NCBI GenBank assembly: GCA_017412605.1
Contig: JAFPWY010000010.1
Span: 186,001 to 250,000 of the forward strand
Direction of reading: 5' to 3'
Origin: Fibrobacter sp.
Lineage (GTDB): Bacteria; Fibrobacterota; Fibrobacteria; Fibrobacterales; Fibrobacteraceae
Length of the DNA: 64,000 nucleotides
Both the position numbers and the translations under genes were made by a program. Position 1 is the first letter of the stretch. Each line of letters begins with the position of its first letter. Shown piece by piece: positions 9,770-40,768 of the stretch. The notes under the pieces were generated by a model. That model searched no databases. It worked only from the letters and a program-made list of their open reading frames with translations, and was not told where the DNA came from.

Positions 9770-10219
9770 ATGAAAAATCTACGGAAGAATATTTTTGGCA
9801 ACCTGTCCGGTTTTGGAATCGTCGAAGTTCTTATTTCAGCTGTCGTGCTCGGCTTTCTGTATCTCGCGCTACTGCACATGCAGGTCGGCAACCGTGAATC
9901 TCTCCTGAGAATTCGTGGGCGCGATGGCGCCGTCGAGGTCGCCCAGAACATTATCGATTCCCTCAAGACCGTCGGGGTCGCCTCCATTGCGTCGTTTTCC
10001 AAGAACGACATCGTCAAGTCCTGGGACCGTGGTCCGGGTGGCAAGTCTAGCCTCACGTACCGTGCCGATGTCACCGTGGGTACCGTCAGCGAATCCGCCT
10101 CGTCCGGTTCCTACTACGAGACCATGTCGCATGTGTATGCAAAGCAGGTGGATGTGAAGGTATCGTGGAAATTCAAGGGCTCCGAACAGTCCGTCAATGT
10201 ATCAAGCGTGGTAAGATGA
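9770..10219 (+). CDS. Prepilin-like minor pilin, PilV/GspI type
   Basis: A 149-residue protein with leader to LSG and prepilin motif G/FGIVEVLISAVVLGFLYLAL, with Glu at +5. It carries the stretch GNRESLLRIRGRDGAVEV, which is identical in the cassette B paralogue at 23650, while the rest has diverged. The C-terminal domain is a small beta domain ending VSWKFKGSEQSVNVSSVVR, also similar in B. It should be processed by a prepilin peptidase and sit near the tip between the H- and W-type subunits. It overlaps the next gene by ATGA, so the two are translationally coupled. Confidence 0.85.
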   Translation: MKNLRKNIFGNLSGFGIVEVLISAVVLGFLYLALLHMQVGNRESLLRIRGRDGAVEVAQNIIDSLKTVGVASIASFSKNDIVKSWDRGPGGKSSLTYRADVTVGTVSESASSGSYYETMSHVYAKQVDVKVSWKFKGSEQSVNVSSVVR

Positions 10220-19133: not shown

Positions 19134-20117
19134 TTATGCCTGCTCGCGACGCTTCTTCTGGAGCGCGTCGATTCGGGCTTGGGCTTCCGCGATTTGATCT
19201 TCGGGAATACCCATTTCGCGCAGTGCTGTCGCCGTATCGGCTTTCGCCTTCGCTTGTGCGTCAGCTAGCTGCTTCTGCGCTTTCGCCTGTTCCTCGTTGC
19301 GCGCTTCCGCGATTTTCTGGCGGAAAACGTCTCCGGCACTCACGAAACCGTATTTCTGTCCGATGCTTACGAATGCCATGTCGAGCTCCTTCAGCACGTC
19401 CTTGGTGACGTACTCCTTCAAATATATACTAATCTTCGCCAGCAGGCAAGCCGCCTCGTCGTGTGGCATGCGTTGCAGCGCCTTCTTGAACAGCGGCAGC
19501 ACCCTGAGCAGGTTCTCCTTGTCGAATGCGTACTTCATCGCTATAATGCCCATTCCTGTGGCTGTGTCCTCGCAGGCGAGGCAGTCGCTGTCGGGTATAT
19601 CGACCATGTTTACGAACGAGCAGGCGAACGGGAGGATCCTCCCGCGGAAACACGATGGATATCTGTCCTCGATGCTCCCGAGCGGGTTCCAGTTCTCGCG
19701 CCCGTTGTAGAATATAATGGCCATCGTGGGGAGCCCGCTGAAGGCGCGGTGTTCACTGTATATCTTCATCACGGAATTTACGTATCGCGCAATCTGGTCA
19801 AGCGTGCCGGAATCGCGCCCGGACTTGTGCTCTGCGAGAATGCCCACGAGCATGGGCGCTCCCGAGGCAACTTCTACGCGGAAGGCAAGGTCTGCTTCTC
19901 CCGTTTCTTCGACTTCGGAATACGAGTCGGGGATGCGTACGAGCGTGTCGAGGTTCACCTCCGAGATGAACTCGCCGATGTCCTTATTCACCTTGCCGGA
20001 AAGTTCTAGCAAATGCCTGAGCCGCCCAACGTCGGAAAAAAGCCATCTGAAAAAAGCGTCGTGTGGTTTTGGTTCGGATGTTTCGTCTGTCTTTGTCATA
20101 GGATCTGTATTTCCCAT
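19134..20117 (-). CDS. Rpn-family recombination-promoting nuclease / PD-(D/E)XK putative transposase
   Basis: A 327-residue protein of the Rpn (PF04754-like) family, which consists of PD-(D/E)XK-type DNases that promote RecA-independent recombination in E. coli. Visible features are HDAFFRWLFSD at the N-terminus, the nuclease core GEADLAFRVEV..LVGILAEHKSGRD, and the AIIFYNGRENW strand. The C-terminus is Ala/Lys/Gln-rich and helical with LREMGIPEDQIAEAQARI, a tail module also seen at 41100-41170. The GGAGA ribosome-binding site precedes the ATG at 20117; an in-frame ATG at 20099 is possible. It is inserted between pilin cassettes A and B, on the opposite strand to both. Confidence 0.85.
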   Translation of the reverse strand: MGNTDPMTKTDETSEPKPHDAFFRWLFSDVGRLRHLLELSGKVNKDIGEFISEVNLDTLVRIPDSYSEVEETGEADLAFRVEVASGAPMLVGILAEHKSGRDSGTLDQIARYVNSVMKIYSEHRAFSGLPTMAIIFYNGRENWNPLGSIEDRYPSCFRGRILPFACSFVNMVDIPDSDCLACEDTATGMGIIAMKYAFDKENLLRVLPLFKKALQRMPHDEAACLLAKISIYLKEYVTKDVLKELDMAFVSIGQKYGFVSAGDVFRQKIAEARNEEQAKAQKQLADAQAKAKADTATALREMGIPEDQIAEAQARIDALQKKRREQA

Positions 20118-20220: not shown

Positions 20221-21183
20221 ATGAAGATTCTCAATTTATTGCCCATTTTTTCTTTGCTTTTCTTCGTCGCTTGCGGTGACGATTCTTCCAGTGCAATTAG
20301 TGTTGACCCCGAAACTTCTTCCAGTTCAGATGAAGTTGTCGAAACCAGTTCCAGTTTCGAGAAAGGTAAAAGTTCCTCTAGCAAAGCTAAGGTTTCGTCT
20401 TCAAGCAAAAAAGAAGCGCGGTCATCGAGCTCTGCTGCTGTCGAAGAATCATCCAGCTCGGGAAAATCAAATCGCTCCTCCAGTTCGAAAAAATCGAATA
20501 GTTCTTCCAGCTCGTCCAAGAAGTCCTCGAAATCTTCCAGTTCCTCGGTTGCGAAGAATTCCTCCAGTTCTGCAGATGTTGTTCTGACTGACCCTATGAA
20601 AATTTTCAAAACAAGAACTCCGAAAGCGGCGGTCCGTCAATGCAGTTTTGAGGAAAAAATTGGAAAAGAATCTATAAAGTGGGACATGGATTTCGACCAA
20701 CAGGATTGGATTTGCACTTTCAAGTATGCCGATAAGGAAGGCTTTGTCTACGTGCAGGGCTCGCCGACCGACTGCCAGACGACGGGCATGGGAATGAATC
20801 CCGAAATCAGTGTGGACACGGCCGTGTTGTACGTGAACGGGAAATATGCAACTCTGAAAGATTTGAACTATGAGTGGGGCGGCAACCACCACAATGACAA
20901 GTTCCGCTTCACTTACGATGGCAAGGTCTACGAATACTTCCATTCTTCCTATGGCTTTGGCGGCCGCAGCTGCCAGGAAATGGATTGCATGAGGGTCTTC
21001 GAATCCGACGGAACGACTCTCATAGAAGACGGCTGCAAGACCTTTGACGAAGACTTGAGCACAGTGAGGTCGCTGCCGGTCGTGTGTCGCTTTGCTAGCG
21101 TGGACGACGGCTCGTTCGGGGATTTCACCGACACGTTTGAACTCTGCGTCGGCGATTTCCGACAGGACATGGATCAAGAATAA
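20221..21183 (+). CDS. Ser-rich-linker lipoprotein of unknown function
   Basis: A 320-residue lipoprotein. The signal peptide ends in lipobox FVAC/GDD. Residues about 20-120 are a low-complexity linker of Ser runs mixed with Lys/Glu (patterns such as ESSSSGKSNRSSSSKK). The globular C-domain (about residues 125-320) has six or more cysteines and aromatic residues (WDMDFDQQDWICTF, YEWGGNHHNDKF). Ser-rich linkers joining a lipid anchor to a surface domain are common in Fibrobacter. I do not recognise the C-domain. The gene appears leaderless. The next gene, another lipoprotein, starts 9 bp downstream, so the two probably form an operon. Confidence 0.75.
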   Translation: MKILNLLPIFSLLFFVACGDDSSSAISVDPETSSSSDEVVETSSSFEKGKSSSSKAKVSSSSKKEARSSSSAAVEESSSSGKSNRSSSSKKSNSSSSSSKKSSKSSSSSVAKNSSSSADVVLTDPMKIFKTRTPKAAVRQCSFEEKIGKESIKWDMDFDQQDWICTFKYADKEGFVYVQGSPTDCQTTGMGMNPEISVDTAVLYVNGKYATLKDLNYEWGGNHHNDKFRFTYDGKVYEYFHSSYGFGGRSCQEMDCMRVFESDGTTLIEDGCKTFDEDLSTVRSLPVVCRFASVDDGSFGDFTDTFELCVGDFRQDMDQE

Positions 21184-21192
21184 ACGGTTCTT

Positions 21193-23457
21193 ATGCCTAT
21201 GATGCGTTTGTCTGTACTTGCCTATTTCTTGTTGTCGATTTTAGTGGCAACGTTTTGGGCGTGCTCCGACGATGATTCTTCCAGAGACCCGAGCGGTCCT
21301 GATGATCCCGATATCATAGTGCCGGACACGACGAGTACAGATACCACCAAGAAGGACACGACCCGTACAGATACGACGCAAACGGATACAGTAAAGACGG
21401 ATACACTCTCGGAGCCGAGTCCGGTCTTTATCCAGAACGAAAACGAGTACACGGGCTTCTACAAAGAAGACGGCTATGCGGCTTTCCGCAAGTTGGCCTA
21501 CACGTCAAAGACGGAGATGGGCGCGAGCTACTTGGTGAAATTTGTTATTTCCAATTTCGATACGGATTCTCCTGAAGTCCATTTCATGAACACGAAGGCT
21601 TATCCGATACATTACGACTTTGCGCAGATGGTACTGCACGACGAACGCTCGGTGTTTGTGTTCGAAAGCGAGACGTATTTCACGACGGAGAAGAATACCG
21701 TTGCTGGGACACTTACGTACTACGCTTCTGTCGATTCCATGATTGCGTTGACGTTCTTTCCGACCGATCTCATTACGCCCGAGCAGGTGGCTGTAGTATA
21801 CAAGATGCTTGAATCCCGTATGCTGTTCCTTTCTCCGGGAGCATCCAAGAACTGCCTGTTCTACATGCCCGCAGGGACAAATGCCGAGGAGGCTGCAGCC
21901 GGTTATGCCGCTGAGTTCAAGGCGGCGAACATCCCCGTCTATACGCATGCCCAGCTGTTTGGCGATATTCCTTTCCAGATCATGAACACCGGGACCGCAT
22001 ACGGGACGCTCCGCAAGCTGACTGCTGCGGAACTCGATACGGCGATTGTCTCTTCGCACGACATTCTGATTCTCGAAACGCTCCCCGCCGAAATCCCGTT
22101 GGTTGCAGCGACAATCAGCAAGGATGCACAGACTCCGCTTTCGCACGTGAATCTTGCTGCGAAGGCCCGCAAGACGCCGAACATCGCATTTAACGGCAAC
22201 GAACTTCCCGATAGCCTGCTCGCCCTTTGCGGAAAACTGGTGAAGCTGGAGGTCAAGTCAAATTCCTATACGGTGGGCGAGGCCTCTCTTGATGAGGCGC
22301 AGGAGTTTTGGAACAAGAATGTGCGTGACCCGATAACCCTCACTTACGATTTGTCGGATACGGGCTTCATCGACTTCGCAGACCTGGATTTCAATTCGGC
22401 GAAGTCGGTGGGCGTGAAGGCCGCGAACCTTGCGGAACTCCACAAACTGCTTCCCGACAATTCGCCCGATGGATTCGCTGTTCCGTTCTACCACTACAGC
22501 CACTTTATGGATTACGCCCAGGTGACTGGGGAACTCTGCGAACGTTCCTTTGCTGATTGCGGGACCGAGGGCCGCTCTTCGGAAATCTGCACCCAGGTGA
22601 AATCCGCCTGCGACAATGCACTCCAGCAAGAATCAGAGGGCTCAGAGTCTGCCGACGAGCCTGGAACCACGTCCCTCCGCTCTTATATCACGAGTCTCGT
22701 CAACCGTGAAGACTTTGCCGCCGATACGCGCCTGCGCGAGGCGATGCTCGACAACATCCGCTACATGTTCAAGCATATCCCCGTCGAAACTTCCTTTGGC
22801 GAGGCTCTCGATGCCAAGGTGCGCGGACTTTATGGCGAAGCGGGTGTGCGCCTGCGTTCCAGCACCAATTCCGAGGATTTGAGCGACTTCAACGGAGCTG
22901 GCCTCTACAAGTCCGTCAAGGCCACCACGCGCGAAAAGGACCTCCCGTCCGACGAAATCCGCAAGGTGTGGGCGTCCGTATGGAGTTTCAAGGTCTTCGA
23001 GGAGCGTTCCCTCTGGAACATCGACCACTTCTCGGTGCAGATGGCCGTGGCCGTGCATGAATCCTACCCGGACGAAGTCGCGAACGGCGTCATCATCACG
23101 CAGAATATCGCGGATTACTCGGTCGCTGGAATCTATGCGAACATCCAGGTCGGCGAAACGTCCGTCACCAATCCTGAAGGCGGGGAACTCCCGGAAATCA
23201 TTTCCATCATCCCGTCGCCACCGCCGCAGCGCGGCGTGCAGAGCGTGCTCTTGCAGCATTCTTCGCTTTGCCCGGATTCTCTAATCCTCGGCAGTGGCGA
23301 AATCTACGCACTCTACCGGACCGTCAAGCTCATCCAGGACCACTTTGCCGCACTTTACAAGAAAAGCTCCGACGCGATAGCCCTCGATATCGAGTTCAAA
23401 CTCATGGGGGAGGACCGCAAGATGGTGTTCAAGCAGGTCCGGCCCTACATCAATTAG
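21193..23457 (+). CDS. Lipoprotein-like PEP/pyruvate-binding (dikinase) domain protein
   Basis: A 754-residue protein. A probable lipoprotein signal (SILVATFWAC/SDDD; the lipobox is imperfect) is followed by a Thr/Asp-rich linker (residues about 30-75). The middle domain contains QTPLSHVNLAAKARKTPN near residue 315, resembling the phospho-His domain of PPDK and glucan water dikinase (LSHVSVRAR). The C-terminal part (about 395-754) is a PPDK_N ATP-grasp domain: SVGVKAANLAEL, GFAVPF, VRLRSSTNSEDLSDFNGAGLY and the final VFKQVRPY. The order phospho-His then ATP-binding matches glucan water dikinases rather than PPDK. A dikinase outside the cytoplasm is odd because ATP is scarce there; the signal should be tested. 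Alternative starts are 21199 and 21202. Confidence 0.75.
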   Translation: MPMMRLSVLAYFLLSILVATFWACSDDDSSRDPSGPDDPDIIVPDTTSTDTTKKDTTRTDTTQTDTVKTDTLSEPSPVFIQNENEYTGFYKEDGYAAFRKLAYTSKTEMGASYLVKFVISNFDTDSPEVHFMNTKAYPIHYDFAQMVLHDERSVFVFESETYFTTEKNTVAGTLTYYASVDSMIALTFFPTDLITPEQVAVVYKMLESRMLFLSPGASKNCLFYMPAGTNAEEAAAGYAAEFKAANIPVYTHAQLFGDIPFQIMNTGTAYGTLRKLTAAELDTAIVSSHDILILETLPAEIPLVAATISKDAQTPLSHVNLAAKARKTPNIAFNGNELPDSLLALCGKLVKLEVKSNSYTVGEASLDEAQEFWNKNVRDPITLTYDLSDTGFIDFADLDFNSAKSVGVKAANLAELHKLLPDNSPDGFAVPFYHYSHFMDYAQVTGELCERSFADCGTEGRSSEICTQVKSACDNALQQESEGSESADEPGTTSLRSYITSLVNREDFAADTRLREAMLDNIRYMFKHIPVETSFGEALDAKVRGLYGEAGVRLRSSTNSEDLSDFNGAGLYKSVKATTREKDLPSDEIRKVWASVWSFKVFEERSLWNIDHFSVQMAVAVHESYPDEVANGVIITQNIADYSVAGIYANIQVGETSVTNPEGGELPEIISIIPSPPPQRGVQSVLLQHSSLCPDSLILGSGEIYALYRTVKLIQDHFAALYKKSSDAIALDIEFKLMGEDRKMVFKQVRPYIN

Positions 23458-39853: not shown

Positions 39854-40768
39854 ATGACAAAAAAAGAGTATGCGGCAATGCTTGTTGACATCAATGAGAC
39901 TCACAAGGCCGGTGGCGATGTATCCGCCTGTATTGCAAGGTATCGAGAGAAGTATAAGTTCGTCTACATCTACAACGACTCCATCTTCAAATTGATTTTC
40001 GGCAACCCTGAGAACGAGAGGATGACCGTAGACTTCCTGAATGCGGTACTCAATCTCTGCGGCAGCGATTGTATAGAGCGTCTCGCCTTCGTGAATCCTG
40101 CCGTGCCCGGTGCGTTCAGTAAGGAGATTATCTCGGACATCGTGGCGATGGATCAGGGCATGGACCGCATCGTCCTTGAGGTGCAACATGTAGACGATGG
40201 AACTTATAGTGACCGCCTTGTGTTCTATACCGCGAAGCATACGGTGGCGAGTCGTATCAAAGGTGACGATTACAAACTTCGTAACTTGAATCTCGTGAGC
40301 CTCCAGATGTTCAGCGGGTTTCCCGAATCGAGCAACTACCGCCACCATGTGCGCCTCAAGAATCAGGAAAACGAGGAATTTTACAAGAAGCAGACCATCA
40401 CGCTTGTCGAGATTCCCAAGTTTTTGAATGGAAAATATCTTTCCGACAACAGCATGCTGGCGCAATGGCTTCGCGTAATTGACGGGCTGAACAATGAACA
40501 ACCACTCCCCGTGCCGGAAGGCTCGATGTTTGCCCACTTGCACGAATGCGCAAAATTGAGTATTTTTATTATAAGCGAGGCAAAGAACATGAGCGACCGA
40601 AACTACGAATTATACGTCGAGAAGAAACGTTCCCGTGCCGAAGGACGCGCCGAGGGCGAAGCCGAAGCTGAAAAGAGAGCCAATGACCGAGCTGCTAAGC
40701 GGATTGACTATCTTCGTTCAATGGGCGTCCCTGAAGAGATTATTGTCGGGGCGGCGGCAATCAAATAG
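39854..40768 (+). CDS. Rpn-family / PD-(D/E)XK nuclease family putative transposase (PF12784-like)
   Basis: A 304-residue protein. The nuclease core is visible as FKLIFGNPENE, then SDIVAMDQGMDRIVLEVQ (the D...E-x-Q signature) and the following RLVFYTAKH. A middle region (HHVRLKNQENEEFY) matches the family's usual reported-element part. The C-terminus is a Glu/Ala/Arg-rich helix (EKKRSRAEGRAEGEAEAEK) with a short LRSMGVPEE tail. Members are often found as multi-copy genes and are linked to Rpn-type recombination. It differs from the 19134 gene but shares the tail design. A partial duplicate lies just downstream. The tail appears shortened compared with that duplicate. Confidence 0.8.
   Translation: MTKKEYAAMLVDINETHKAGGDVSACIARYREKYKFVYIYNDSIFKLIFGNPENERMTVDFLNAVLNLCGSDCIERLAFVNPAVPGAFSKEIISDIVAMDQGMDRIVLEVQHVDDGTYSDRLVFYTAKHTVASRIKGDDYKLRNLNLVSLQMFSGFPESSNYRHHVRLKNQENEEFYKKQTITLVEIPKFLNGKYLSDNSMLAQWLRVIDGLNNEQPLPVPEGSMFAHLHECAKLSIFIISEAKNMSDRNYELYVEKKRSRAEGRAEGEAEAEKRANDRAAKRIDYLRSMGVPEEIIVGAAAIK

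Follow-up and report, generated by a model that had tools for sequence, protein, structure and literature searches.

The question raised by this locus is what a dikinase would do outside the cytoplasm. To our knowledge, the known dikinases are cytoplasmic or plastidial and serve central metabolism, starch turnover, or antibiotic inactivation. A gene of a rumen Fibrobacter, located in a stretch of 64,000 nucleotides (G000:C10:186001-250000, here called the window), encodes an intact-looking dikinase that appears to be lipid anchored. Such a protein raises two questions, namely, which envelope component of a rumen cellulose degrader receives the phosphate, and what is the source of the phosphate donor. 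Our analysis points to an exported dikinase which, with a co-inherited lipoprotein, would constitute an unrecognised extracytoplasmic phosphorylation system, not a starch kinase.

Reading frame, domain order, and catalytic residues

The reading frame of the dikinase gene (Table 1) was confirmed to be real; since the gene has orthologues in many genomes and is under strong purifying selection (dN/dS of about 0.06 to 0.15 against close orthologues), the frame is far beyond what chance would produce. An in-frame stop codon is found 12 bases 5' of the ATG, and the candidate starts are 21193, 21199, and 21202.

Table 1 Features of the dikinase locus (positions in the window)
Feature	Position	Strand	Remarks
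Partner lipoprotein	20221..21183	+	Stop codon 9 bases before the dikinase ATG; adjacent in orthologous loci
Dikinase-like lipoprotein gene	21193..23457	+	754 aa; orthologues in many genomes
Signal peptide and lipobox F-W-A-C24	21193..21264	+	Sequence reading; leader and Cys kept in Fibrobacterota with a complete N terminus
Variable linker, Asp/Thr-rich (Ser-rich in many orthologues)	21265..21423	+	Alignments
N-terminal domain, common to the Streptomyces homologues; invariant K116, H140, Y162, D192	21424..21900	+	
GWD-like phosphohistidine swivel domain, motif TPLSH318VN..TPN	21970..22300	+	Weak PF22973 match; H318 invariant
PPDK_N ATP-grasp domain (K409, R555, E561, D562, D732, E734, Q748, R750)	22402..23454	+	Pfam, profile alignment

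The earlier note on this DNA had placed a phosphohistidine domain ahead of a full ATP-grasp domain, and this was borne out by Pfam and by a profile alignment to phosphoenolpyruvate (PEP) synthases: the former domain covers residues 286 to 364, with the motif LSHVNLAAKARKTPN at residues 316 to 330, and the C-terminal ATP-grasp domain covers residues 404 to 751. The Pfam PPDK_N model matched residues 404 to 643 above its cut-off (E=4e-17), a match that spans positions 2 to 196 only of the 328 in the profile. For the remaining part of the ATP-grasp fold, the family profile aligned with solved PEP synthases through DIEFK (residues 732 to 736) and KQVRP (residues 747 to 751), the latter being the ATP-grasp motif that forms the C terminus. 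The N-terminal domain gave no Pfam match. An AlphaFold2 model of the dikinase built from 13 sequences reached a pLDDT of 45, owing to the shallow alignment, and was set aside.

We then compared 42 aligned members of the family, many of which are close relatives. Residues H318, N320, P329, N330, K409, R555, S556, S557, E561, D562, R605, Q748, R750, and P751 were invariant wherever covered, while D732 and E734 were exchanged solely as D/E, in one member. The conserved residues correspond in the alignment to those that form the catalytic set of the ATP-grasp domain in solved PEP synthases. A loss of ATP-binding residues, the concern voiced in the earlier note, was not found in this alignment, and the catalytic set is kept. 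As read from the alignment, the ATP site and the phosphohistidine are intact, and judged by its parts the protein should work like a dikinase. These residues also bear on the view that the protein is a pseudo-enzyme, i.e., a lipoprotein that is exported and senses nucleotides or phosphate by binding without transfer. Its unusual location and the fact that no acceptor domain was recognised would fit such a role, but an acceptor histidine and ATP-grasp catalytic residues that are invariant across deep divergence are rarely kept by pseudo-enzymes, and we hold this view to be improbable.

Relation to glucan water dikinases

The histidine of glucan water dikinase (GWD) is phosphorylated by the beta-phosphate of ATP, and the phosphate then passes to the glucan (PMC7569903). 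The domain order of the Fibrobacter protein matches that of GWD, with the phosphohistidine domain before a C-terminal ATP-grasp domain, and to this extent the GWD-like character suggested from the DNA alone was upheld. A bacterial GWD-like dikinase acting at the cell surface on plant or bacterial glucans would also suit the habits of Fibrobacter, which lives on plant polysaccharide, and weak matches to the GWD histidine-domain model PF22973 were obtained for 8 of 23 dikinase members, the best with an E value of 0.0013. For the dikinase itself, however, this model scored 12 bits over residues 286 to 364 against a cut-off of 27 (Pfam, E=0.16), and since below-cut-off matches were also found in five unrelated control genomes, including that of E. 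coli, the PF22973 match alone is not specific. Neither CBM45, CBM20, nor any other carbohydrate-binding module was detected in the dikinase (Pfam, E<=1) or among the families matched by the 23 members, it lacks the CFATC redox motif found in plant GWD, and no glycogen, starch, or glycoside hydrolase gene is conserved beside it in the orthologous loci, where the co-inherited genes encode predicted exported lipoproteins with no function assigned and no evident tie to glucan. The alpha-glucan (starch) kinase part of the suggestion was not supported, the dikinase is not classed here as a GWD, and a GWD function is not supported by its sequence; a glucan-directed enzyme seems to us an improbable reading.

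Leader and export

The N terminus of the dikinase, MPMMRLSVLAYFLLSILVATFWAC-SDDDSS, reads as a lipoprotein-type signal with Cys at residue 24. Signal calls were rule-based. Every Fibrobacterota relative with a complete N terminus, down to about 30% identity, has a leader that is hydrophobic and runs up to a Cys. Within the genus, the residue preceding the lipobox Cys is Ala or Gly (FWAC, LLAC, LWGC, VVAC, LGAC, and others), while some distant Fibrobacterota members have an atypical residue at -1. The linker following the leader is variable, Asp/Thr- or Ser-rich, and resembles those of exported modular proteins. The only leaderless homologues were two, both from Streptomyces. Because the leader and Cys are conserved in every phylum relative with a complete N terminus, the lipoprotein-like signal described earlier stands, and its misprediction, one of the options then offered, is unlikely; nor is it a start-codon artefact. 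We infer that the dikinase is an exported, lipid-anchored lipoprotein.

The same conservation speaks against a spurious signal on what would be a cytoplasmic enzyme of the PEP synthase or pyruvate phosphate dikinase (PPDK) type. A metabolic role is arguable in that the lipoprotein dikinase was the sole PPDK_N protein found in its genome, with no canonical PEP synthase or PPDK found there. Pfam, however, detected no PEP/pyruvate-binding domain in the dikinase or the other members, the domain order is reversed, the conserved neighbours bear export signals, and, unlike that of a central metabolic enzyme, the gene is present in 23 of 80 Fibrobacter genomes only. We regard a cytoplasmic enzyme as extremely improbable.

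Predicted ATP-using kinases outside the cytoplasm

The objection that ATP is lacking outside the cytoplasm, also raised in the earlier note, is fair in general but weak here, because at least 12 CotH-type kinases are encoded in the genome carrying the dikinase, and the members of a tandem array that were read carry export signals. This array (L099, G000:C10:308000-316500) consists of four similar CotH kinase open reading frames with signal peptides. CotH-type kinases were found in 142 of 167 genomes of the phylum, and exported ATP-using kinases are, as far as their genes indicate, usual in Fibrobacterota. In Bacillus, CotH phosphorylates coat proteins (PMC11841064).

CotH genes lie near the dikinase gene in two distant loci. 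We rejected co-occurrence with CotH as evidence of linkage, since CotH is nearly universal in the phylum; only the proximity in the two distant loci is suggestive. At L088:11518-14954, genes for a CotH kinase, a DUF4956 membrane protein, and an HlyD-like protein are found about 2.5 kb from a dikinase gene.

Partner lipoproteins and co-inheritance

The lipoprotein encoded directly upstream of the dikinase (Table 1) comprises a Ser-rich linker and a Cys-rich all-beta C-terminal domain (residues ~119 to 320) and matched no Pfam family. A structure model of the conserved domain was all-beta (pLDDT 79), and no fold was recognised for it in Foldseek and VIA searches, which returned weak beta-barrel matches. 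The best of these, to bradavidin (Z of 5.9), is too weak for any family kinship to be claimed.

The partner was present in exactly the same 23 of the 80 Fibrobacter genomes as the dikinase, which also occurs in more distant Fibrobacterota, and in none of the 57 dikinase-less ones. It adjoins the dikinase in 21 of the 23; in the remaining two it was detected solely on a different contig, and in at least one of these (G137) a contig end truncates the dikinase gene. Some genomes have two to four copies of the partner, one of them downstream of the dikinase. The probability of such co-occurrence by chance is ~1e-20 if the genomes are taken as independent, a figure that overstates the case since they are related; the patchy distribution nevertheless makes the link between the two genes strong.

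Families f3 and f9 of the phylum have a different partner lipoprotein, A5, encoded directly upstream of the dikinase, an independent repeat of the pairing. A5 was found in only 8 of 167 genomes, all 8 of which carry the dikinase gene; in one of them (G078), the contig ends within the dikinase gene, which begins immediately behind that of the partner. No homology was detectable between the two partner families (hhalign probability of 0.4%). The neighbours differ again in a third dikinase clade, where they bear export signals, in some cases together with lamin-tail-domain lipoproteins or CotH. The conserved neighbours of the dikinase carry export signals by the rule-based calls, and the dikinase tree splits along partner type. 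Clade-matched partners would be expected if the enzyme serves different clients in different clades. The co-inheritance shows that partner and dikinase share a function, not that the partner is phosphorylated, and the partner could be a receptor, a scaffold, or a target.

Several further features of these loci deserve mention. In another clade of the phylum (L100, L101, L102), a conserved cluster of three more genes with export signals (~328, 393, and 144 aa) lies upstream of the dikinase. Positions 10165 to 39690 of the window hold repeated modules in which N-methylated pilin-like genes are each followed by a gene for a giant protein (2494, 2240, and 2045 aa). Only in close strains does the second such module directly follow the dikinase, and a link between the pilin genes and the dikinase was rejected for this reason. 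YhgA-like/PDDEXK transposase-family genes (19134 to 20117, minus strand, and 39854 to 40768, plus strand) flank the region and may have brought genes into it. A viral contig record (L039:4065-4673) contains a PPDK_N gene fragment beside other genes, which may mark a prophage boundary.

Homologues in Streptomyces

A sensitive search of plasmids, phages, and viral contigs, together with Fibrobacterota, identified homologues sharing the N-terminal domain outside the phylum in Streptomyces only. They are ~24% identical to the dikinase and cover 83 to 91% of the query length. Named 'PEP/pyruvate-binding domain-containing protein' (L037 and L038), they have the same N-terminal domain, histidine motif, and ATP-grasp domain, and differ in being without a leader and in an operon suggestive of a small-molecule product. 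In this plasmid operon (L037:4475-9302 and L038:4127-8807), a candidate phosphorylated-peptide pathway, the homologue is flanked by genes for an ATP-grasp ligase and an MFS exporter, an arrangement that by analogy is typical of small-peptide biosynthesis. The ancestral substrate of the dikinase family may, on the same analogy, be a small molecule.

It could then be asked whether the Fibrobacter dikinase itself phosphorylates a small molecule or peptide, on O or on N, outside the cytoplasm, with the partner as a binding protein. Besides the Streptomyces layout, the all-beta, barrel-like model predicted for the partner domain would agree with this, and the review PMC9961378 cites an N-P-bond-forming kinase in the biosynthesis of phosphoramidate protease inhibitors, a possible parallel. 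The Streptomyces proteins, however, are leaderless and distant, and no biosynthetic genes were seen near the Fibrobacter locus. We consider such an activity rather unlikely.

Proposed function

We propose, with a probability of about one half, that the dikinase is an exported, lipid-anchored phosphohistidine phosphotransferase devoid of a PEP/pyruvate domain, which resides in the periplasm or on the cell surface and has a dedicated partner lipoprotein. The proposal is built on the leader and its Cys, the intact catalytic set, the domain order, the selection on the gene, and its strict co-inheritance with the partner, all read from sequence; actual export, ATP as the donor, the dikinase reaction, and the partner as a client are what we infer from them. 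The C-terminal ATP-grasp domain would bind Mg-ATP and phosphorylate H318 in the swivelling histidine domain, and phospho-H318 would pass its phosphate to an acceptor on the N-terminal domain and/or on the partner lipoprotein. We take the likely acceptor to be the partner or else a glycan or small ligand that it binds; the layout of the Streptomyces operon hints at a small ligand rather than at the partner. More tentatively, and at somewhat less than even odds, we suggest a two-gene extracytoplasmic system in which the histidine relay of the exported dikinase phosphorylates the partner lipoprotein dedicated to it, or a ligand of that lipoprotein, and for which unrelated partners were recruited in different clades. 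The dikinase and its partner are a defined gene pair with which both the envelope target and the source of the phosphate donor can be tested.

Comparison with known systems

A literature search for an exported PPDK_N protein yielded nothing relevant, and a phage search likewise. Among the known systems, the plant dikinases GWD and PWD (EC 2.7.9.4 and 2.7.9.5) have in common with the Fibrobacter protein a phosphohistidine domain that is immediately followed by a C-terminal PPDK_N ATP-grasp domain, the SHV motif, and the absence of a PEP-binding domain. The Fibrobacter dikinase differs from them in having no starch-binding modules and a histidine domain below the model cut-off, and in being, as predicted, a bacterial exported lipoprotein with a partner lipoprotein. 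With PEP synthase and PPDK it shares an ATP-grasp domain with equal catalytic residues and a phosphohistidine swivel domain, while its reversed domain order, the missing PEP/pyruvate TIM barrel, and its predicted export set it apart. Rifampin phosphotransferase (Rph) combines PPDK_N with a histidine relay acting on a non-PEP acceptor. Rph is, however, cytoplasmic and without a partner lipoprotein, and its order is an N-terminal ATP-grasp domain, an acceptor domain, and then the histidine domain, the reverse of that in the Fibrobacter dikinase, which scored 35 bits with the Rph NCBIfam model against a cut-off of 999. The CotH kinases, finally, modify coat or exported proteins and are abundant and, where read, carry export signals in the same genome, but they are unrelated to the dikinase and contain neither a PPDK_N nor a phosphohistidine domain; if our proposal is true, the two-gene system would phosphorylate extracytoplasmic proteins or ligands without a kinase-fold enzyme such as CotH.
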